From the NCBI GenBank assembly GCA_015680905.1, contig CM027383.1, forward strand, positions 86,275,001 to 86,339,000: a stretch of DNA of 64,000 bases. Reading direction: 5' to 3'. The notes under the pieces were generated by a model that worked only from the letters and a program-made list of their open reading frames with translations, made no database searches and was not told where the DNA came from. Source of the DNA: Coptis chinensis. Taxonomy: Eukaryota; Streptophyta; Magnoliopsida; Ranunculales; Ranunculaceae. Numbering within the stretch: the stretch's first letter is position 1; every line of letters begins with the position of its first letter. Shown here piece after piece: positions 2,460-62,097 of this stretch. Both the position numbers and the translations under genes were made by a program.

Positions 2460-4515
2460 TTAATGATTTAATGTAGTTGCTGAAATACATACCAAGTTTT
2501 AATGTAATTAAAAGTTATTTGTGAAGAGGTTAGTTTAATGTAATTGTATCTAGTTTGATTTTTGATTTCTAATTAATTATTCTTCTTTGAGGTTAATTCA
2601 ATACATTTGCATTCAATTTCTGATTTCCTATTAATTATTTTTTAAGCTTAGTTTAATGCATTTGCATCATGTTTCTGATTTCTCGTTAGTTATTATTTAA
2701 GGTTAGTTCTATGCATTTGCATCATGTTTCTGATTTCTTATTAAATATTTTTTGAGGTTAGTGCATTTGCATCTAGTTTCATATTTCTCATTAATTATTC
2801 TTTGAGGTTAGCTCCTTTCAGTAACGCCTAGTTTTCGATTTTCTATTAATTATTCTTTGAGATTACTTCAATACATTTGCATCATATTTCTGATTTCCCG
2901 TTAATTATTCTTTGAGGTTAGTTTGATTCATTTGCATTCAGTTTCCGTTGTCCCATTAAATACTCTTTGAGATTAGTTGGATGCATTTGCATTCAGTTTC
3001 CATTGTCTCATTAAATACTCTTTGAGATTAGTTGGATGCAATAGTTGCATCTAATTTTCAATTTTCCGTTAGTTATTATTTGAGGTTAGTTTCCAGTTGT
3101 ATCCAGTTTCCGATTACCTATAGTTAATTATTTTTTGAGTTTAGTTCATGTATTTTCTTCCACTTTCCGATTTTCCATTAATTATTTTTTTTAAGATTAG
3201 TTCAATGCAATTGTATCTAGCTAGTTTTTAATTTCATGTTAATCTTTCTTCTTTGAGATAATTAGTTCAATGTATTTGCACTCAATTTCCTATTTTCCGT
3301 TAATTATTATTCTTTGAGATTAGTTCAATATAGTTACATTCAGTTTCTGATTTCTTATTTATTATTCTTTGAAGTTAGTTCAATGCATTTTCATGTTATT
3401 TTTTATTCATGTTAATTATTCTTTGATGTTAGCTCAATGCAGTGGCTCACAGTTTCTGTTTTTCAATTAATTATTCTTCTTTAAAGTTAGTTCAATGTAG
3501 TTGCATATATTTTTCAATTTTTTGTTAATTATTCTTTGAGTTTAGTTCAATGCATTTGTATCTAACTTTTTATTTCCCGTTAATTGTTCTTCTTTGAGTT
3601 TGTCAACTCAATGCAGTTGCATCAAGTTTCTAATTTTCGGTTAATTTTTCTTCTTTGAGGTTAGTTCAATGCACTTGCATCCTATTTCCAATTCTTTGTT
3701 AATTATTCTTTGAGGTTAGGTCCACGCAATTGCATCAAATTTCCAATTTCCCGTTAATTCTTCTTTGAAGTTAGTTCAATGCAGTTACATCCAGTTTTCA
3801 ATTACATACTTGTACTTAATTATTCTTTAAGTTTAGTTCAATGCATTTTCATCTATTTTCTGATTTCCTGTTAATTATTTTCTTTGAGGTTATTTCAATG
3901 CATTTGCATCCAGTTTCCAATTCCTCATTAATTATTCTTCTTTGAGATTAGTTTAATGCAATTACATCTAGTTTCTGATCGATTTTCCATTTATTATTCT
4001 TTGAGGTTAGTTCAATGCATTTCTATCTAATTTCTAATTTCTCGTTAATTATTCTTTGATGTCATTTCAATGCAGATGCATCCAGTTTCTGATTTTCTAT
4101 TAATTATTCTTTGAGGTTAGTTCAACGCATTTGCATCATGTTTCCGATTTCCTATTAATTATTTTTTGAGGTTAGTTTGATACATTTGCATTCAGTTTCT
4201 GTTGTCCCATTAAATATTATTTGAGGTTAATTGGATGTATTTGTATCCAGATTCCTATTTCCCATTAATTATTCTTTGATGTTAGCTCCATTCAGTTGCA
4301 TTCAATTTTCGAATTCCTACTAATTATTCTTTAAGGTTAGTTCAAGCATCCAGTTTTTTATTTTTCATTAATTATTCTTTGAGGTTAGTTATTCAATCCA
4401 GTTGTATCCAGTTTCCGATTTCCAGTTAATTATTCTTTGAGGTTAATTCAATGCAGTTATATCCAATTTCTAATTTCCTGTTAATTATTTTCTGATGGTA
4501 GCTTATAATGCATTT
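2460..4515. repeat. Diverged minisatellite, about 57-bp period, about 35 copies
   Basis: The stretch is made of head-to-tail degenerate copies of one unit. Each copy contains in order TTCTTTGAGGTTAG, TTCAATGCATTTGCATC, a CAGTTTCTGATTTCC block and GTTAATTA. Spacing between successive TTTGAGGTTAG blocks is about 54-62 bp. Copies differ by substitutions and small indels, so the array is old. There is no coding potential. It directly abuts the broken end of the copia element at about 4515. Confidence 0.9.
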
Positions 4516-7041: not shown

Positions 7042-7053
7042 GCTCTGATACCA
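7042..7053 (-). promoter_or_regulatory. Primer-binding site for initiator tRNA-Met
   Basis: On the minus strand this reads TGGTATCAGAGC, the standard plant copia primer site complementary to the 3' end of initiator tRNA-Met. It sits two bases inside the LTR end. Confidence 0.9.
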
Positions 7054-7055
7054 CT

Positions 7056-7784
7056 TGTTGGATAAAACGATACCAATCAATCCCAACTAAGATAGCTTGC
7101 ACTTGGACAATCTACTACTACAAACAAAAAATCTAATATTTCACTACAAACAACAACCACAGCCTAAACTATGGATATAACTATCACAAACAAGCAATAG
7201 AAATATTAGAGAAGATAAAACATATCATAACACAATGATGTAACGTAGTTCGGCCAATGATGCCCACTTCCACAAGAGCTAATCATTTTATAAGTGTGGG
7301 AATTGAAGGAAGATTACAATCACTCCTCTCAAGTCTCTCCATCTTACTAGATCTCTTCTCTCTCCTTACAAGATTTTATCTTTGCAAGGGTTTTCTCTCA
7401 ATTTTGATTGCTCTCAAAATTGGGTTTCTATTCAAGACTTGGTTTTCCAAAACCTAACTTTTGTTTTTATAGTAATCTGAAATTTCGGCGCATCTGCAAA
7501 ATTTCGTGTTTACTATAGAAAAATCAGAACCCGACATATTCAGGCATGAGCGCAAGCGCGCTCTTGGCAAGGCCAATATGAGCGCGCGCGTGCTCTTATT
7601 TTTCCATCACAAAACTCTAATAGACATGTTTCGTGAGAGGCTGAAAAAAAAACTATCTTCTTTTTCACGGCAAGGACGCGGGCATGCATTGGGCACGGCC
7701 AATCTAAGCGCGTGCGCGCTCTGGCTTTTTCACATGAACAATACTTGTTTTCTTTTCTTCCTCATGTGAGGGATAACTCCAACA
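7056..7784 (-). repeat. Copia LTR (5' LTR of the minus-strand element)
   Basis: Boundaries are TGTTGG at 7056 and CCAACA at 7784 (TG...CA), 729 bp. The inner end lies two bases from the tRNA-Met primer site. The LTR carries two copies of a GC-rich GCGCGC module at 7543-7596 and 7681-7725. No second LTR is present, so insertion age cannot be estimated. Confidence 0.85.
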
Positions 7785-39854: not shown

Positions 39855-40117
39855 TGTTAAATTCTATGTTAGTAGTGATGCTAGGAGAGTTGTAACATTG
39901 ATATATTAGAGACACCAAGAAGAAGACCAAAGAAGACTAGAGATTGATTAGGGTTAAAAAGTTATTAGGTTGAGAACGAGTTTGTTCTCTATCCAGAGTT
40001 ACATACTTATACTAACCTAAAATATGATAATAGCAACTACTAGATATGGATGTCCACACTTATAGAAACATGAGACTTTCCATATTGGACATATACTAAT
40101 ACTAACATATTCTAATA
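39855..40117 (-). repeat. 3' LTR of the non-autonomous element
   Basis: The plus strand begins TGTTAAATTC and ends CTAATA; in element sense it starts TATTAG rather than the usual TG, in both copies. Adjacent polypurine tract at 40118-40130. Confidence 0.9.
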
Positions 40118-41695
40118 CTCCCCCTCAAGCTGTAATTACGCAAACTATGCAAATTACAACTTGGATTACAAAAAAACAAAAGATAATAATACTACTCCTC
40201 CTTTTGCATAGAATTGTCTTTAGTTGAAGAACTCGAACAACTGTTGAGATGTTCTGGAGGTGAAACTGTCGGTGTAGGCAATGGCCTAACCTGAATACTG
40301 AAGGTGTGCCACAGTCACAAACTGAAATCATAACACCGATTTAGTGGCGCGCTGCTTGGCTACTACTTACTCCATTCGCTGTTATGGCTGTCATAATATA
40401 AAATGAAAACAATAACATTGACTTGATGTGCGCTTCTTGGCTGCTACTATCAATGTCACTATTAATGTTAACAAAATACTATTATGGGTACTCCTGAAAC
40501 ATACTTGCAGTTGAGGCTTGATCTACACGAAAAACATAATGATAGTTGAGGCTTGATCGCTACTGAATCTTGAAGACCAATAGTGGAGATGTCATATTGA
40601 AGACTGAATAGTGGATATGCCTTGTCATGAAGAGTTCGTCAAGGCTTGCTGGAATATGGAGACATGAGTACTCTTCCTCATACGTCTCCATATTCTCCTT
40701 CCCTCATATACTACTGAATGTCTTCATATCTCCCTATTCCCCCTCTCAAGTTGGAATATACAAGTCTGTTGAAACATACAAAGGCTTGTCTATTCCGACT
40801 TGAACTTGAAACTGAGAAAACTAAATACCAACTTATACAACCAACCAATGCCCACTTCAAAAAACTATACCTCATACTCCAATTCACAAAAAAAAATTCT
40901 AACAGAACATGCATCAAACAATACTCACTATAGAGGATGAAGGGTGAGTCACGCCTTTTTATGACTGCGAACTTCGGGAATAGTGGAAGATGGAAAGAAT
41001 AATTCCTCGTGAGATAGAGGTCATGTGCACCTATAATACTTCAAACAAACAACTTGATCATGTTCTAAAAACTGAGACAGAAGATGGCATCAATACTAAC
41101 TGCACGGAAGCTAGAAACCCAAACATCCATAATGGCATACAAACAATAATACCCCTCCAATCCTGGATGAGAGTGCAAACTACCTTCCAAAGGCTTGATA
41201 CTTCAAAAATCTCGAAAACTTATGTGTGGAGGCATGAGCGCGTGCGCGCCTTCATCAAGGCCAAAGACTCCGGGATACAGAGAGATTGTGCCCCTCTTAT
41301 CAATGCTAAGACAGAGAGATTGCGGAAGACGTAGATTGCAGAAGCGAAACAATACTATGAAACCAATACTGAGAAACTTCAGATCTCTCTTCTAGCATTC
41401 TTCAAACAAACTTTAAACACTAACGGAATCTTTAAAACTTACTTTAACATGACGATGAATAGTACCGTGAACAGTATCGGTGAATAGTACTCGTGAACAG
41501 TGCCGGTGAACAATACCGTGAACAGTAAACTCGCCAGAGAAAAAATTGAAACTTGAATTGAGATATAAAAACTTCTTCTTGTGAGAAATCCTTCTTCTTC
41601 TTGAAACTTGACTTGAATACTATACTGAAAAACTTAAATAAACTTGATTTTGTTTCTTGGTGAGGGATTCCTCTCCTAGCATACCACTGAACCTC

Positions 41696-41707
41696 GCTCT
41701 GATACCA
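41696..41707 (-). promoter_or_regulatory. Primer-binding site for initiator tRNA-Met
   Basis: The minus strand reads TGGTATCAGAGC directly adjoining the 5' LTR end, the plant copia arrangement. Confidence 0.9.
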
Positions 41708-41970
41708 TGTTAAATTCTATGTTAATAGTGATGCTAGGAAAGTTGTAACATTGATATATTAGAGGCACCAAGAAGAAGACCAAAGAAGACTAGAGATTGA
41801 TTAGGGTTAAAGAGTTCTTAGGTTGAGAAAGAGTTTGTTCTCTATCCAGAGTTACATACTTATACTAACCTAAAATATGATAATAGCAACTACTAGATAT
41901 GGATGTCCACACTTATAGAAACATGAGACTTTCCATATTGGACATATACTAATACTAACATATTCTAATA
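41708..41970 (-). repeat. 5' LTR of the non-autonomous element
   Basis: Direct repeat of the left LTR with about six differences over 263 bp, indicating a fairly recent insertion. Confidence 0.9.
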
Positions 41971-43337: not shown

Positions 43338-46300
43338 TGTCACACCCCGAATTTCGACAGAATTCGGAAAAACAATATTTGTTCCCGACTCTTCGATTTT
43401 CGAGGTGTGACGCACTCTCCACTTCCAAAAACCCATAAATAGTTTAAATATGCGGATAATTAAAACCAATAAAAATTTCAACTTAAACAAAAGTCCTCTT
43501 CATTACAAAAATTCACAAATAAGATTAGGTTACAAATCTCTTTTCAATAACTCTTTATTTAAAATTACAAATAAAAATACAAATAACATTGTCTCAATTG
43601 AAAATCTATATCACCTCAAGGGAAAACAAAACATATCCTGAAATGCAACGCTAACGCAAACCACAAGCAGCAACCAACCTTCTTCAACACTAAACCTGTC
43701 AAGACTTATCAACTATGTTCATTTAATGAACACACCCGATAAGCAAACATGCAAATCGGGCCAGCATTATAAAAATGTTGTTGTGAGTAGCTCTAAAATA
43801 GAACATATACTTATATATATACATACACAATCCATAAGGCAGTTAGTTCCTCCACTGAGGCGCCTTAACTCCCAACAACTAATACGACATTCTTAACTAC
43901 AATAAGTAAGGCTTGTAGTTCCTCCACTGAGGCGCCTTAACTTCCCACTAACTACACAACAAACCATATGCATAATAAAAAGGTATTTAGTTCCTCCACC
44001 GAGGCGCCTTAGGTTCTAACTAAACTAATAACCAGCCAACCATTTTCTATACTTACCGTATTTCATGCTCAATTACAGAGTGGGTCGTCTCTGCACAAGT
44101 AGTTAGTTTGACCCACCATTATGCAAAACCCTATACATTTATATATTTAAAGATATTTTATTAACCAACATATTACCATAATTATATTATTTAAGGTTTT
44201 CTTTGCATGTCCCTAAAATCACGTCGTATCTATGTCTTACCTAGTTTCCCTGGCTACCACAATCGCTTCCCAACGCCGAACATGTACATCCACATGCCTC
44301 CCCTCACATAATGAACCACTTCGTGCATAACTACCCGAAATGGGATGCGCGACACCGGTAACCCTCATATGAAAGCCATTATGCAAGTACTGCCACTATT
44401 CGGCATAAAATATCGCGCGTCTCGTTCTAATTTTGCGAACGAAATAATCAAGCCACTATTCGTCTACACCAGAAGGGCCATTCAGATTCACTGAAACGCC
44501 AGAAGGGCCAATCAAGTTACTTACGCCCGAAGGGCCATTCAGATTCACTGAAACGCCAGAAGGGCTAATCATATCACGTACGCCCATCACTAGGGCCAAA
44601 TCACATGAGTTGTGGTATCTAGGTTCTAGGATTTTCGTTACATAATTTATTCAGGTATCATACATTTATATCTCAGAATAATTCTTATACTATCCCAGGC
44701 CAGTAACTTAATTGTACTGAAGGCCAACGTTTCTCGTTATAATACAATCCACATTATCACGTGCCAATACTATTCATTGCACGATATCCAAATATCTCTA
44801 TATCAAATATCGAAACTTATTATTTCACGTGCCAATTATATATTGCACTACACCATATGGGATATCTCAGCCTTCATACATACCACAATTCATTTAAGTA
44901 GCAACTCATAATAATAATCAATCATGAAATCTATTCGTTCAATATATTTATATGAACTCAAGTCACCCTCAAAGCCCAATACTAAAGTCCATGAATCTAA
45001 GTCCGTATGTAGTTTAATACTCATAAAAACATATATATCTAAGTCTTATTATCAGAATTCCCCTCTTGTTACGTGCCAATATATTATATGCTTTACACAC
45101 TACTCACGTCAAATCTTAATTAGATAATGACAAACAATGTTATACAATTTTTGACAATATTTTATTACTACATTTGTCCATATTCTTAAATATGTGAAAA
45201 TCTGGAAAAAAAAATCAACATTCCACAGTCAACGGTCAACTGTCAATGGTCAACGGTCAAAGTCAACACGTCATTTCCATGTTCAACAAGTTCATGGTCA
45301 TAGCCATGGTTCACGGCTAAGGTCAAAGGTGCATGGCTCATGGGCTCATGACTAAAGGTAATGGTTTGGACCCAACTAGCCAAGCCCAAACCCAAACCTT
45401 AGAACCCGGCCCCAAAAGTCTAAACATTTAAAGACCCAATTAGATCTATTTTAAGTTATATGGACCGGCCCAAAACCAAATTAGAAACTGACTCAAAACA
45501 CAAATGGGTTCGCCCCAGAGAATTAAACTGAAACCGGCCCAACACTTAAACTAAAACTGGTCCACAACTTAAACTAAACTGGACCTAAACAAAAGATTAA
45601 TCCGGTCCAACAACTAACTAGTGTTTAGGCCCAAAAACTTATATCAAAACTGGCCCAACCAAAACAAAATAACATCGGGCCCAAATAAACCAACCAAGGC
45701 CCAAGCCCAAGCCCAGCCGGTCATCTTCTCCATCAGTTACCACCACCACCAGCTCACGCGCCGGCCACCACTTCTCCCTTTCCCATCATATCGGTTTTGC
45801 TCCCTGACAAAAACCCAATAACTTTAATACATACAAAAACCTCAAATCCTTAAATCAAAGCCCTTCATCAAATCTAGATCTCGAATTCGAGCCGCCATTA
45901 ATGGCTTCTACAACTTCGACAACACCTTACCACCCATCGAAACAACACTAACCAACCTCAAACTAACAAATCTAACATCACAACAAAAAGTTTAATCAAA
46001 TCAAACAGTTCGAATTGTTTTACTAGAGGATGTCTAGGCGTGCCGCCATTAACGAGTCTTGGGAGCTTCCAACAGCTCTTCTGCCAACCCCCAACCCCCA
46101 CCAAATGGTTGGGTTTTGATCCCCATCAAAACCAAACCTTTGGAGTGAAATCAAAACCCAAACAAAACCTCATTGTTCACAAATGTCAACGCCCTTGCAG
46201 TTTTTTTTTCAAAGTTTCAACAACTCTTCCGCCCAACATTCAATCACCCATCACTAATCACAGTTTAATAGTTCAACCGCATCTACCAACCCAACAACAT

Positions 46301-50761: not shown

Positions 50762-52861
50762 ATTACTGTAACGCCTGTATTTAAAATACGTATTTATTTA
50801 TTTATTTAATTATTTATTTAATATTTGATTGGATTGGATTTGGGATACGCGGGACTGGTTTCTGGGCCCGAGTCTGTGTTGGGCTTGGATTTCAAACCCA
50901 AGTATATAATCACATTGTTCTAGAGAATAGGATTTTAGAGAAAAAAAAATAATAAAAATAGAGGCAGAGATAAAGCTGGATTGCTGGAGGACTACGAGGG
51001 ATTCGTGAAGCTGTTAAAACAGGTGAGTAGAGTTTATCTCTCACCACTACTAAAACTATGATTTTCGTCTGTTTAGTATTTACGAATTTACTGTCGAGTG
51101 TTTTCGACCAGTTTCTTTTTTATAATTTTAATTCTGTCGATATGTTTTAGATTTTGGTTAAACTGTCGAAACTCTGTTGAGGCTAGAAAATCGACATTGA
51201 ACTGTCCAAGCTTTATGGGCATTAATGGCAGATAAAGCCCAATAGTATGAAATCGTCCTATACCTTTGGTTGAACTCTATTGGGGTGGTCTGGAACCCTT
51301 ACTGATGAGGTTAGAAGTGAATGATGTTGGTTGGGTTATGGGGGATGTCGGGTTTAGAAGCGGGGGATGGTGCTGTCGAAGCTCTGTCGGAGCTCTGTAA
51401 TATTCATGGCGGCACCAAGAAATCGCCAGTCTATGATTTGGAAACGTAGTAGTTGGATCTTGATGTTGTATGTTGGGTTTTGCTTTTTGATTGTTGGTTG
51501 GTTGGTTGAAGTGGGGTAGTGTAGGGTGTATGAGGCTGTCGAATGGGTGTTGGAAAGGGCTGTCAAAGCTCAGAGAAACCATCAATGGCGGCACGCCCAG
51601 ACGTCTCCAGTAAATTGATTCTAACTATTTTTGGTTGATTTGTTGATAATGGGTTGAAGTGGGGTGTGTTTGAGTGGGGGAGGGCGGTCGAATAGGGGCT
51701 GTTGGAAGCTTCGATAGGCGTTAATGGCGGCATGAAGATTCCAGATCCAGTTTTGGTTGAGGATTTTAAATTTAAGAATTGAGTTTTTGGCTTTTAGTAA
51801 AGTTGTAGGGTTTGTATTTAGGAGTGATTTCGGTTGGTTGAAATGGGAGATGGTGGTGGTCGGAAATTTGGGCTGCTGGTGGTGGTAGCTAGTGAGGAAG
51901 AAGACCTGTTGGTCAGCTTGGGCCTTGGGCCCGGTTTTGGATTAAATTGGTTGGGCCAAAAACCTTATTTTGTTTGGGCCTTTTCTAATTGGTTTTCTTT
52001 GGGCCGAACTAAGTTAAGTTTTGGGCTTGGGCCGAAATGGTTAAGTTTTGGTTGGGCCAAAACTCTATTAGTTGTGTTGGGGCCGGGCCGAAATGTTTGA
52101 GTTTTGTTTGGGCCAAAGATCTAACTTTAGTGGTTGGGCCGGATTCATTTCTTTTAATTTGGTTTGGGCCTTCTCCAATTAGTTTTCTTTGAGCCTGTTT
52201 CTAATTTATGTGGGCTGGTCCTTATGTCCCCAATTGGGTCAGGTGGTATAAATAAGTTGGTTTTAGACTTTTGGGTTCTAAGGTTTAGGCTTGGCTAGCT
52301 GGGTCCGAACCATTACCTTAGCCATGAGCCCATGAACCATGCACCTTTGACCTTAGCTATGAACCATGACTATGACCTTGGAACCTGTTGAACATAGAAA
52401 CGACAGTTTGAATTTGACAATGATGTGTTGAGTTTGACTTTGACAATAATGTGTTGACTTTGACTTTGACCATTGACCTTTGACTGTGGAATATTGACTT
52501 TTTCCAGTTTTTCACATATTTAAGAATATGGACAAATGTAGTAATAAAATATTATCGATATTGTATAACCTTGTTTGTCATTATCTAATTAAGATTTGAC
52601 GTGAGTAGTGCGTAAAGCATATAATGTTTGACACGTAACAAAAGGGAAATTTTTATAGGACTTAGATATATATGTTTTTATGAGTATTCCATTATATACG
52701 GATTTAGATTCATGGACTTTGATTGTGGACTGTTGATTGTTTAATCGTGTTACGTTTTTATATATTAAATTGTATGGACAAATCAAATGCTAAAATGTTG
52801 TGGAAGCTTGTATAAATTTGGTTGTCATTATCTAATTAAGATTTGACATTGATATTGTGAC

Positions 52862-52863
<2 letters not shown>

Positions 52864-52951
<88 letters not shown>
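52864..52951. repeat. TA microsatellite
   Basis: About 44 uninterrupted TA units inside element B. The corresponding part of element A lacks it. Confidence 0.95.
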
Positions 52952-52954
<3 letters not shown>

Positions 52955-53244
52955 TGCAATAGTCGTGGAGAAATAAATGTATAGACACTCCATTATTTTA
53001 TCTGTGAGATGCTAGTAGAGTATTTGTGGATATTTTCCACGGGAGTGTGGCGTAATGCAATAATATATTGGCACGTGAAAGAATGAAAATAGTTATGAGA
53101 TATAATTAAGATATTTCTAAATATTGTGGCACAGTGCAATAAGGTATTTGACCTGCACGTGATATAGTGGAATTATTATGAGTCATAAATGGATGACACT
53201 TGAATAAATTACGTAACGAAAATCCTAGAACCTAGCTACCACAA

Positions 53245-53470
53245 CTCATGTGATTTGGCCCTTCTGGCGTTTTAGTGAATCTGAATGGTCTTCGGGCGTA
53301 AGCAATGTGATTGGCCCTTCTGGCGTTTCAGTGAATCTGAATGGCCTTCGGTAAAGTAATGTGATTGGCCCTTCCGGGCGTTTGATGAATCTGAATGGCC
53401 TTTGGGCGTAAGTAATGTGATTGGCCCTTCTGGCGTTTCAGTGAATCTGAATGGCCCTTCTGGCGTAGCC
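53245..53470 (+). repeat. Tandem array of about 58 bp, four copies, in element B
   Basis: Units contain GTGATTGGCCCTTCTGGCG, TTTCAGTGAATCTGAATGGC and CTTCGGGCGTAAGTAAT. Element A has about two units at 44470-44590 (reverse strand), so copy number has changed since the elements diverged. Confidence 0.85.
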
Positions 53471-53919
53471 GAATAGTGGCTTGATTATTCCGTTTGCAAA
53501 ATAGAACGAGACGCGCAATATTTTATGCCGAATAGTCGCAGTACTTACATAATGGCTTCCGTGTGAGGGTTACCTGGTGTGCGGCATCCCGCTCAGGGTA
53601 GTTACGCACGGAGTGGTTCATTATGTAAGGGGAGGCATGTGGATGTACATGTTCGGCGTTGGGAAGCGATTGTGGTAGCCAGGGAAACTAGGTAAGACAT
53701 AGATACGACATGATTTTTAGGGACACGCAAAGAAAGCCTTAATTAATATAATTATGGTAATATGTTGGTTAATGATATATCTTTAGACAGATGATTGTAT
53801 ATGGTTTTGCATAAGGGTGGGTCAAACTAATTACTTGGACAGAGACGACCCACTCAGTAATTGAGCATGAAATGTGGTACGGATATAATATGTTTGGTTG
53901 GTTATAGTTTAGTTAGAAC

Positions 53920-54090
53920 CTAAGGCGCCTCGTGGAGGAACTAAATGCCTTTTTATTATGCGTATGGTTTGTTGTGTGGTTAGTTGGGAAGTTAAGGCGC
54001 CTCAGTGGAGGAACTACCTGCCTAAATTATTGTACTTAAAGATGTTGTATTAGTTGTTGAAAGTTAAGGCGCCTCGGTGGAGGAACTAAC
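53920..54090 (+). repeat. Three spaced AAGGCGCCTC hairpin blocks in element B
   Basis: AAGGCGCCTCGGTGGAGGAA-like blocks near 53930, 53993 and 54065 are 65-75 bp apart. Each contains CCTC-AGTG-GAGG, able to form a small hairpin, next to the palindrome GGCGCC. Element A keeps three such blocks at 43850-44010. Confidence 0.8.
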
Positions 54091-54754
54091 TGCCTTATAG
54101 ATTGTGTAAATATATTTATAAGTATATGTTGTATTTTAGAGCTACTCACACCAGCATTTTTATAATGTTAACCTGATTTGCATGTTTGCTTATAGGGTGT
54201 GTTCATTAAATGAACATAGTTGATAAGTCTTGACAGGTTTAGTGTTGAAGAAGATTGGTTGCTGATTGCGGTTTGCGTTAGCGTTGCATCTCAGGATATG
54301 TTTTGTTTTCCCTTAAGGTGATATAGATTTTCAGTCTAGACAATGTTTTTGTATTTTTATTTGTAAATTTAATTAAAGAGTTATTGAAAAGAGATTTGTA
54401 ACCTAATCTTATTTGTGAATTTTTGTAATGAAGAGGACTTTTGTTTAAGTTAAAATTTTTATTGGTTTTTAATTATCCGCACATTTAAACTGTTTATGGG
54501 TTTTTGGAAGGAGAGAGTGCGTCACACCTCGGAGATCGAAGAGTCGGGAACAAATAATGTTTTTCCGAATTCTGTCGAAATTCGGGGTGTGACAATTACC
54601 ATAATAAGCTAACAACATACTATTGGATCTTACTACCTTGGAGCGAAACTGCAAAAGCACCCGCTACTGTCACCTAAACTCCACACATTTCTCTATTATC
54701 TCCGACATTTGCAGCTCATCTTCCTTCGTTTTTTAGTTCTTTTCCACTGTCACC

Positions 54755-56515
54755 CTTGCATTGACAACCTTGGTGTTTCCAATTCCTGGCTATCAACACC
54801 GGGTTTCTTATGAACGGAAAAGCTTTTTATGCCAAAAACACCAACACCAGGTTTCTTAAACCCGACAAATAAGAGCAATGTCCTTAGACTAATCCTTTCC
54901 TTGGAAATGGAGAGATCGCCGTTTCCCATCCTGAATGCTGCATTTCCCCTAAGTATAGACTTCCCCACGTATCCTTTTTGCTGGAGCTATTGCTAAGGGG
55001 TGGGTTCGGGTTTTTCCTTGGGGTAAGGAGTGATTCCTACTCCCGACAAGGTTACTACGGGTTGGCAGCTCCATTTCAAGTGTCGCCCTTTGTTTCTAGT
55101 CCAAAGAGTACTCATACCTTCGCATCTCTATCACTAAGGTGTGGCGCCTCCCCTTCACTCCATTCCTTAGGAATGGTATGCGGCCGCCCCTCAGCAATAC
55201 TCGAGAAATCCCTTTTGTTATAGTTCCAAAGCGTCCTACCTTTCCTGGTCTTCCAGTTGCCTAAGCCCGTCCTGACTAGCCAATTTATTCTATTGAGAGA
55301 TAGCCTTAGGCTTTCTTTCTCCTGTAGCCTATTGAAAATCGGGTTTTTGTTTTAAAGGATAGAACTAGGTCCCTCCTTCTTTGTACTGACAGGTGAGCAA
55401 AGGAGAACCCTTGGGTTGTAGGAGTCAAGTCTATGTCAGGACCTCTTTCCAGGTATCCTCCTAAGTGAAAGATTAGCTTCTTGGGACTCCTTCCTACGTC
55501 GAACTTCTTCTTCATCTATTTTCCCAAGTCGGGTGTTGGGTTTAAAAGAATAGATCGCCCTTCTTTTTACTGAAAGTTGAGATATGGGGCCGCCAGGTTG
55601 ATCTATTACGAAAAGAGCTCGGCTAATAGGGTCTCGCCCCCATACTACCTAATTTACTAACTAGAAGTAGAGTATATGTTAGGACAAGGCGAAGGGTAGT
55701 TCCCTACCTTCAGGATTACCTTCTATAGAATCTCTCCTGCGGCCTCGTTCTCGTGAGCCCCCCCTAATAAAGCTAAGTCAAGAATATGGAGACTCGGTTC
55801 TTTCTCATGGATCCCAAAGTCGGTGTTAGGTTTTTTCGTATCGAAAAATGTCGCTCCTTTCAGGACACGAAAGGGGCATCGCATCTAGGTCTAGAATAAC
55901 AAAACAAAGATCGAGCTTCGCACTTCGGGAAAGAGATGCAGAAGACGTTCGACGCCCCTTCTATTTCGGTCCTTGCAATCCCTCCAGAAGAAAGTGTCTT
56001 CGCTCTGCTGCGCTTAGACCGCTACCCCAGACATGGGGCCGGAGCTCACTACGAAAGGTCCTACCGATCACGCTTACCTATCGATACACTCACTATGTGA
56101 CCATCTATCTACTAACCAAACTCCCACTTTCAAGAGAGAGAAGAGCTGCAACCTATTATCTGCTTTCGGGCAATTCTCCGCTTTTGGTAAATCAGTTGTT
56201 AGGTCCTTGATTCCCAATAACGAATAGGCTAACTCTATCTCTCAATTGCCTATCCTGTGTGCTCGAGAAGGTCCCCCAGTTCCTTGGCCTCGAGGTGCAT
56301 TTAGTTGTCTCACATGCGACTCGGGATATTCCCCACTCCATGACACCTTTCGCTCATCCATTCCGCTCGACCAGACACGGCGCCCTTTCTCATTATCATC
56401 TACCGCCCTTTCTTTCCTCCCGGCTATTCACGCATGAAGATCATGAAGATCGTCGTATGTATGCTCGACTTCGGTTGCAAGGGAGTCACACTTTTCATAC
56501 ACTTCGATAGCTCCC
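54755..56515. other. Probable mitochondrial DNA insertion (NUMT)
   Basis: Base composition rises sharply to near 50 percent GC with many C-rich and CTTTC-rich runs, unlike the AT-rich flanks. The style is that of plant mitochondrial intergenic DNA. Overlapping ORFs (54978-55223, 55848-56210, 56246-56510) have residues such as LRERDAEDVRRPFYFGP but I cannot tie them to a named mitochondrial gene with confidence. No nuclear gene structure is seen. Both ends are approximate. Confidence 0.55.
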
Positions 56516-60424: not shown

Positions 60425-60754
60425 CTTTCACACCTTTTCGTCCTCAACAACAATGAAAGATGTGTTGGAAAATTCTGGAGAAGCAGTTGAATAAGGGCAT
60501 TAATTTTGGAGAGCCTAGGATATCCACCAAGGATCGTTTTTCTGTTGGTGACTACAATAAGCTGAAACATTGCAAGATTGGTCCTTTTCAAGTGGTTGAG
60601 AAGATTAACTCCAATGCCTATCGTCTCCGTTTGCCTAGTCATATCCGAACTTCAGATGTTTTCAATGTCAAACATCTCATACCATTCTGTGGTGATTCAT
60701 CGGATGATGAGGATGGCTTAAATTCGAGGACGAATTCCTTTCATCTAGGGGGAA
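60425..60754 (+). pseudogene. Ty3/gypsy integrase C-terminal remnant and polypurine tract
   Basis: The plus strand encodes the end of a gypsy polyprotein: DRFSVGDYNKLKHCKIGPFQ, VEKINSNAYRLRLPSHIR and TSDVFNVKHLIPFCGD, then an acidic tail with NSRTNSFHLGG. This is the integrase C-terminal part common in chromovirus-type gypsy elements. It ends at CTAGGGGGAA, a polypurine tract, directly before the LTR. Everything upstream (protease to integrase core) is missing. Confidence 0.85.
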
Positions 60755-61114
60755 TGATACAGTGCAGGTTCTTGCAGAAAAGTACCTAGATGCACATGGT
60801 GGTGTCTTGAAAGGCTGAGAGTGTTACTAGTGGAGGTGCGAGGGTGCGCGCGCTCAGTTTTGCCTTCTGACAGGCGCGCACGCGCTCAAGGCTTTTCTGT
60901 GGGCTTTTACGAAGTCAGTCTTTTGTTTCATTTATTTTCTGTAGGATTGATTAAGTGAACTCACCACTTGCTTGTTTTAGGTTTAGAACGCCTATTTAAA
61001 GGCTTAGGAGAATTGTAACAGATTCATTAAGTGATTTTATTAAATTTATTCCATCGTTTCTTGGTTAAAAAGCGATTATTTGATTGTTCGTGTGCTAACG
61101 CACTTAATATTACA
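60755..61114 (+). repeat. Ty3/gypsy LTR (360 bp) shared by two partial elements
   Basis: Begins TGATACAG after the polypurine tract and ends AATATTACA just before a primer-site-like sequence. It therefore serves as 3' LTR for the upstream integrase fragment and as 5' LTR for the downstream gag. It carries the GC-rich module at 60843-60893. Confidence 0.82.
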
Positions 61115-61119
61115 TTAGT

Positions 61120-61129
61120 TGGTATCAGA
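61120..61129 (+). promoter_or_regulatory. Primer-binding site, tRNA-Met type, partly degraded
   Basis: TGGTATCAGA starts five bases after the LTR end; the last two bases of the usual 12 are changed. Confidence 0.75.
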
Positions 61130-61148
61130 TTTAGTTACGATCTAGTTA

Positions 61149-62097
61149 TGCCTTGTCTGGCAGGAAGAGGGCGTGGTAGAGCTCAGAGAGAAGCTACTAT
61201 AGACGATGTGTATGCTTGTGATCGAATGGCTAAACTTTCAAGGTAGGTAGCAGCGCTAACCTGCCAAATTGAGGCCCCTAATCGACAACCCAACCAACCA
61301 CAAGACCGTGAACCACAGCTAGTAGAGGACGATCTGGAGGCAGAGGCCGATAACCCCTTTGCCAATTTGGAGGATATTGACAACTTCCAACACGTTCCGT
61401 TTCACCAAGACAACAGACGCTGGAATCAGGCTTAAAAATTGATTTGCCTGAGTTTCATGGTAGCTTGCAACTGGATGAATTGATTGATTGACTCGGTACA
61501 GTGGAAGAAGTTATGGAGTTCAAAGAAGTGCTCGACAACAAACAAGTGGCGCTTGTGGCAACACATTTTCGTGGTCGTGCTATGGCTTGGTGGCAACAGT
61601 TGAAGGCGACTCATGCACGAAGAGGAAAATCTAAGATTGTTGTTTGGGAGAAACTTAAGAAACATCTCCGTGCTGCATTTTTACCTTTTAATTATACTCG
61701 TGCATTGTATCAACGACTTCAGAACTTGCGCCAAGGTGCTAAGTCTATCGATGACTATACTAAGGAGTTTTACCAGTTATTGGCTCGTGTAGAACTCACC
61801 GAATCTGATGATCAATTAGTGGCACGGTACATTGGGGGTTTTCGTTCTGATCTCTAGGATGCGTTAAATCTGTTTGATGTGTTTTCTATGTCTGAGGCTC
61901 ATCAAAGGGCATTAATTCTAGAGAAACAGTTGAACCAACGAGGTGGTGGTCCTCATACCCGTACCCCAAATGATCCTCTCCCTAGGCCATATGGTGTGCC
62001 GGACGATGTGGCTCGTGGTCCTAATTCAGTTAAGTGTTTTAGATATGGGGAGATCGGTCATTATGCTAATCGATGCTCTAAACTGCCTGCTCCTAGG
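61149..62097 (+). pseudogene. Ty3/gypsy gag, 5' part, with stops
   Basis: Starts MPCLAGRGRGRAQREAT. The retrotransposon gag domain reads DNKQVALVATHFRGRAMAWW, ATHARRGKSKIVVWEKLKKH and SIDDYTKEFYQLLARVEL. The zinc knuckle is CFRYGEIGHYANRC, in which the second cysteine of CX2CX4HX4C is replaced by tyrosine. In-frame stops near 61246, 61435, 61490 and 61857 show it is dead. The frame is cut at the 5-bp duplication of the inserted solo LTR. Confidence 0.88.

Follow-up and report, generated by a model that had tools for sequence, protein, structure and literature searches.

A short GC-rich module recurs in retroelements of different superfamilies within a single 64-kb window (the whole stretch of DNA that was analysed), and the question raised by this locus is what these elements have in common and what the shared module might do for them. 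The module has a set arrangement with near-fixed spacing, is present in both copia and gypsy elements, and lies either in U3 before a TATA-like box or in the 5' leader.

Architecture of the module in the window

The preliminary description reported four copies of the module, and all four were found where it had placed them (Table 1). The layout of box, core and box is confirmed. Searching the window with GAGCGCGTGCGCGC at up to three mismatches gave 13 matches, several of them overlapping because the box is nearly palindromic, compared with a mean of 0.18 in shuffled sequence. Modules A1, B, C (read over 41231-41285, + strand) and D align without gaps over ~50 bp, while MAFFT opened one gap in module C. 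The order in the window modules is a box, seven variable bases, AAGGC(C/A)AA, three bases and a box. AAGGC starts 21 bp from the first box in every copy, and A1, B and D have their second box 32 bp from the first. The boxes on either side of the AAGGC(C/A)AA core are GC-rich imperfect palindromes of the form GAGCGC-N4/5-GCGCYC; over the module as a whole the second box starts 32-33 bp past the start of the first, and in the second gypsy group (F2) a CCC interrupts the alternating tract. In leave-one-out profiles A1 scored 48.8 bits when omitted, B 33.8, C 37.0 and D 40.8; no second-order Markov window (30 for each set) exceeded 19.6 bits. The degraded copy that had been described upstream of A1 is present as module B, with a decayed first box, and the positions aligned with it are more complete in other LTR copies.

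Table 1. Modules of the window and the elements that hold them
Feature	Position	Strand	Remarks
PBS TGGTATCAGA of copia element	7044..7053	-	
5' LTR of truncated copia element (TGTTGG...CCAACA)	7056..7784	-	Read from sequence; 40 further genome matches
TATA-like box of copia LTR	7464..7471	-	105 bp past A1 core start, element sense
Module A1 (proximal)	7543..7597	+	Box, core AAGGCCAA at 7569-7576, second box; antisense to its copia element
Module B (upstream copy, same LTR as A1)	7669..7723	+	First box degraded; from window alignment
Small non-autonomous LTR element (C), 2.1 kb	39855..41970	-	LTRs 39855-40117 and 41708-41970, 98% alike
Module C	41231..41264	+	Single box and AAGGCCAA, without second box; antisense, internal leader
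Gypsy LTR (TGATACAG...TTACA)	about 60755..61114	+	Ends read from preceding purine tract and following PBS
Module D	60838..60892	-	Box, core AAGGCAAA at 60859-60866, second box; antisense to its gypsy element
TATA-like box TATTTAAA of gypsy LTR	60993..61000	+	134 bp past D core start, element sense

The truncated copia element (A) retains its PBS together with pieces of copia gag and of integrase. Module C is not part of an LTR; it lies between the two LTRs, in the internal leader of a small element with a PBS at 41698-41707 and a longest internal open frame of 116 aa. The gypsy LTR (D) sits between an integrase end and gag, all in one orientation. Across 60457-61857 the integrase end, LTR and gag follow one another on one strand as if one LTR served two gypsy elements. 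Element families of this kind point to a plant host.

Other repeats were seen in the window. An AT-rich tandem array with a unit of ~55 bp (2516-4500) adjoins the truncated copia element. Two long inverted arms (43338-45355 and 52318-54594), whose pieces are 77-98% complementary and ~7-11 kb apart, contain 72-bp repeats around AGGCGCCTTAACT and resemble a long-arm DNA transposon. Short open frames at 55300-56500 give the impression of organelle-derived coding pieces.

Element families carrying the module

The module is not the property of one LTR family; it is common to copia and gypsy lineages. The preliminary description held that otherwise unrelated retroelements carry the same module, and weighed against this a longer shared region of recent origin. 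Within the window, the A, C and D regions did not match one another in a sensitive comparison at E 0.01, so no longer recent region of common origin joins them. Genome-wide, too, similarity between families is short, and the module is strongly over-represented. We searched one genome of 935,630,033 bases in 116 contigs, and the pattern counts are lower bounds. The pattern GAGCGCNNGCGCGC-N7-AAGGCNAA gave at least 155 matches (82 and 73) versus 0 for the reversed pattern in 936 Mb, AAGGCMAA-N{0,20}-GAGCGCG gave at least 801 versus 2, and the GAGCGCNNGCGCGC box alone gave at least 1327 versus 7. GC-rich words stand out easily in AT-rich DNA, and the module might on that account be put down to chance or base composition, but these reversed-pattern controls and the leave-one-out profiles refute this explanation and leave it a negligible probability.

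All of the first 30 N7 matches (L009-L038, of which L021-L023 overlap) among the at least 155 fall within retroelement families by flank similarity, in five groups: 11 in copia group A, 13 in the second gypsy group F2, four in gypsy group D, and one each in the small element C and the copia-like C2 (L013). None of the samples, this one included, is random; they were chosen by type or by order of coordinates. Similarity across families extended over 52, 53, 58, 65, 65, 84 and 109 bp in the seven pairs listed, the two longest at 68-70% identity. The copia label of group A rests on the copia domains of the window element, and a reverse-transcriptase-like frame in another group A locus (L044) had no Pfam match at 0.01. 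Relatives of group D contain an integrase end (L039). A TGGCGCC-type PBS-like word, in a pattern written after the sequences had been viewed, is present in 12 of 13 F2 loci and presumably fits tRNA-Asp priming. Three F2 open frames compared with Pfam gag gave one match above the cut-off (L030), one below it (L026) and none for the third (L035). A further LTR-like family, L043, with relatives L084, L095 and L096, shares only 58-109 bp with the others. A C-type copy, L089, has a second box-like word that is absent from window copy C.

With the group A LTR as genome query, 2738 first-look candidates yielded 41 matches, and 40 of these were scored. Both module positions are covered by the alignment in all 30 LTR copies that were fetched, and each group A LTR has two modules with up to four boxes.

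Sampling of the box alone took in its 24 earliest distinct sites along contig 1: known group A copies account for five, one (26167354) was omitted and 18 were fetched. In 13 of these 18 the box lies within a match to another locus (A, C, relatives of L043, and two further groups). At L087 the match to another locus lies only near the box and not across it. The remaining four (L085, L086, L099, L100) were assigned to no group, so we do not claim that the boxes are restricted to retroelements. The long module pattern had no match in viral contigs or in plasmids, and a single match in prokaryote genomes (L001, Microvirga) is taken as chance.

Several of these loci have features of their own. L021 (3029 bases) is a tandem of four LTR-like group D units within 3 kb, each with the module. 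In L042, a group A LTR, a longer imperfect palindrome with a GC-rich centre (GGAATAG...CTATTCC) lies ~255-295 bases past the anchor. L083 and L092, 88% alike over 1.2 kb, represent another repeat family that has a GC box and is unrelated to the other loci. In L079, ~65 bases past the anchor, a CACTA-like transposon end directly adjoins a module-like box pair.

Spacing, position and orientation

When the AAGGCMAA core was placed at N0-6 from the box, no match was found in the whole genome, and at N8-30 there were three, at N12, N21 and N22. These patterns are slightly narrower than the N7 pattern, with M in place of N in the core, a position occupied by T in 5 of the 100 N7 matches listed. The linker from the core to the second box was N3 in 53, N4 in 43 and of other lengths in 4 of the 100 matches listed out of at least 801. 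Linker letters are highly variable in both sets of listed matches, with linker length nearly constant. As a yardstick, 5.2% of 5124 anchored 7-base linkers in the 30 LTR copies fetched by LTR similarity were altered in length, a rough figure given that the windows overlap and that anchors which are GC-rich and intact bias the set towards young copies. The patterns themselves pick intact, hence younger, copies, which weakens the argument from spacing, and common ancestry of the cassette alone could explain the fixed spacing.

We also considered a captured coding piece of a host gene. A frame is open through the ungapped module in window copies A and C, but the changes show by eye no preference for third codon positions, and a second-box distance of either 32 or 33 bp breaks the frame. 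A captured exon was dropped on these two grounds as highly improbable.

The module lies in U3 in copia group A and gypsy group D, and in the 5' leader in the small element C, C2 and F2. In 11 of 12 group A rows a TATA-like word follows the core start by 59-105 bp, and in all five group D rows (three loci) one follows by 73-134 bp; of 2709 130-bp pieces drawn at random from these loci, 498 (18%) contain such a word. Rows within a family are related, so the TATA placement amounts to few independent cases.

The module had been called antisense to its element in all four cases. It is antisense in all four window copies and, at the main position, in every lineage examined (A, C, C2, D, F2 and L043, the direction of L043 being taken from its TATA-like word); as C and C2 are related, these are five independent cases at most. 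Genome-wide the rule was dropped, because sense cores occur in the leader arrays of gypsy F2. F2 leaders have extra boxes ~0.7 kb further on, more than are found in group A LTRs, and in 5 of 13 loci the core in these arrays is in sense orientation, always 21 bp past the box start. By similarity, L077 and L078 have a sense core of the same kind, and L035 has an antisense core-like word in the leader array region. The box of the F2 leader array has 17 nt instead of 16 nt, yet the distance from box to core is still 21 bp, and a DNA element able to function in both orientations would be expected to retain this distance in the sense arrays.

The cassette may instead have spread between families by recombination or by template switching in reverse transcription, in which case its spacing would be mostly inherited and no regulatory role need be shared; GC-rich palindromes perhaps aid such transfer through pausing. 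The shortness of the block that families share (52-109 bp) is consistent with spread, as is the relation between C elements and their relative L013, which are 87-91% alike up to the module and then diverge. Tandem copies also form readily, as in the gypsy leader array and the paired modules of group A LTRs. However, spread of this kind does not account for linker letters that have turned over in many variants at almost constant length, nor does it predict a site upstream of TATA in two unrelated groups, and we consider it rather unlikely.

Folding of the module

The preliminary description noted that alternating GCGC tracts can adopt Z-DNA or hairpins, and found a shared role in transcription, RNA processing or packaging conceivable; the alternating tract of F2 is, as mentioned, broken by CCC. 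Hairpins in the genomic RNA could act in packaging or dimerisation or be a source of small RNA. In favour of this, the boxes are palindromic, if imperfectly so; a folding z of -2 or lower was obtained for 14 of 38 copies (7 of 12 in group A and 7 of 13 in F2); and the arms of box 1 pair slightly better with their own than with a shuffled partner (shuffle fraction 0.005-0.015, among related rows). In maize, small RNAs are drawn to Sirevirus palindromes, and palindromic cis-regions are linked with small RNAs, according to the available part of Martin et al. 2023 (PMC10760457, for the link citing Bousios et al. 2016). Predicted stability, however, is higher for the antisense strand in 26 of 38 copies, for the sense strand in 11 and equal in one. 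Within group A the box test gave 0.25, the outer arms 0.145 and box 2 (8 pairs) 0.66; covariation across the dyad symmetry of the boxes is weak, and paired changes that were striking by eye were not upheld by permutation tests. The middle hairpin stands out against shuffled letters (0.002) but not when the shuffling is done by column (0.08). Modules in sense orientation exist, and box 1 is missing from some F2 copies. With folding, middle hairpin and covariation mixed or contrary, the sense-RNA hairpin was rejected as the main explanation, and we regard an RNA-level element of any such kind as distinctly unlikely.

Comparison with known systems

The RM box is a repeated palindromic motif with a CGG-CCG core, specific to Sireviruses and present in 8-32 copies per element, as described in the available part of Bousios et al. 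2010 (PMC2829016). Similar to RM boxes in that account, our module consists of GC-rich boxes, here imperfect palindromes with weak covariation, that occur in LTRs upstream of a TATA-like box and also in a non-LTR region, conserved amid diverged flanks. The clustering upstream of TATA is matched in groups A and D but not in C, C2 and F2. Unlike RM boxes as that part of the article presents them, the module is not confined to Ty1/copia, being present in gypsy groups D and F2 (gypsy integrase end, gag), its core is GAGCGC..GCGCYC, and its boxes are paired around AAGGCMAA at a near-fixed spacing common to copia and gypsy. Group A LTRs have at most four boxes per LTR as opposed to at least eight RM copies per element, and F2 leader arrays have more. 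Since three defining RM features are absent, we do not class the module as an RM box; by analogy, it may work like RM boxes yet span superfamilies.

Sharing across superfamilies has a precedent in maize, where Copia elements and Helitrons are reported, in the part of PMC10760457 referred to above, to have a palindrome in common. That palindrome differs in sequence and is single, whereas our module is a spaced composite. The word CACGCGC is given as an FHY3/FAR1 binding site in the accessible text of PMC6000157. It is present in all four window modules and in 15 of 40 main modules (A 4/12, D 3/6, C 7/7, L043 1/1, F2 0/13, C2 0/1). On these counts FHY3/FAR1 was dropped as the sole factor.

The Drosophila gypsy insulator is a regulatory site in the 5' leader of a retroelement. 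The Copia 5' UTR activator is likewise a regulatory site in a retroelement leader, as noted in the available part of PMC2829016. Both resemble our module in having repeated DNA sites in the leader; they differ in host and sequence, and the function of the module is a prediction. A literature search by title and abstract, covering few subscription papers, returned nothing describing the cassette, and five module fragments looked up in paper texts led to 10 papers, none of them titled on plant retrotransposons.

Discussion

A protein-bound DNA composite fits three features: spacing that barely changes while linker letters are free, a site close to the promoter in two groups, and the occurrence of both orientations. 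The reading that we prefer, with a probability of roughly 0.5, is that the module acts at the level of DNA as a cis-regulatory composite, in effect an enhancer-like cassette predicted from its sequence. The core at 21 bp and the second box at 32-33 bp from the first would stand near two and three helical turns, and one host factor or a small set of factors may bind the boxes cooperatively on one face of the DNA. The bound factor would promote transcription of the element, and the success of the cassette in this host would be why unrelated retroelements arrived at it by convergence or obtained it from one another. Against a regulatory role, the module lies in the transcribed leader and not upstream of TATA in C, C2 and F2. 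Retention of CpG in individual copies was 0.50-0.93 at 18 module sites versus 0.30-0.83 at 12 other LTR sites, with no excess for the module, and because these ranges overlap we make no claim of selection on individual copies.

A host-derived signal acquired more than once is a possible origin of the cassette. More tentatively, the cassette may address a host "regulatory socket", in which unrelated copia and gypsy lineages carry the same composite, with sites within ~1 bp of helical register and in either orientation, and depend on one host factor complex for transcription. Regulation in cis would then have become common to several superfamilies through convergence or exchange. Should a single factor recognise the cassette, copia and gypsy elements would come jointly under one host pathway, and one short natural probe could be used to look for the factor. 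The genome offers hundreds of intact copies of the module and many more decayed ones. Under the same assumption, the sharing of regulation between retrotransposon superfamilies, by convergence or by exchange, would become testable.
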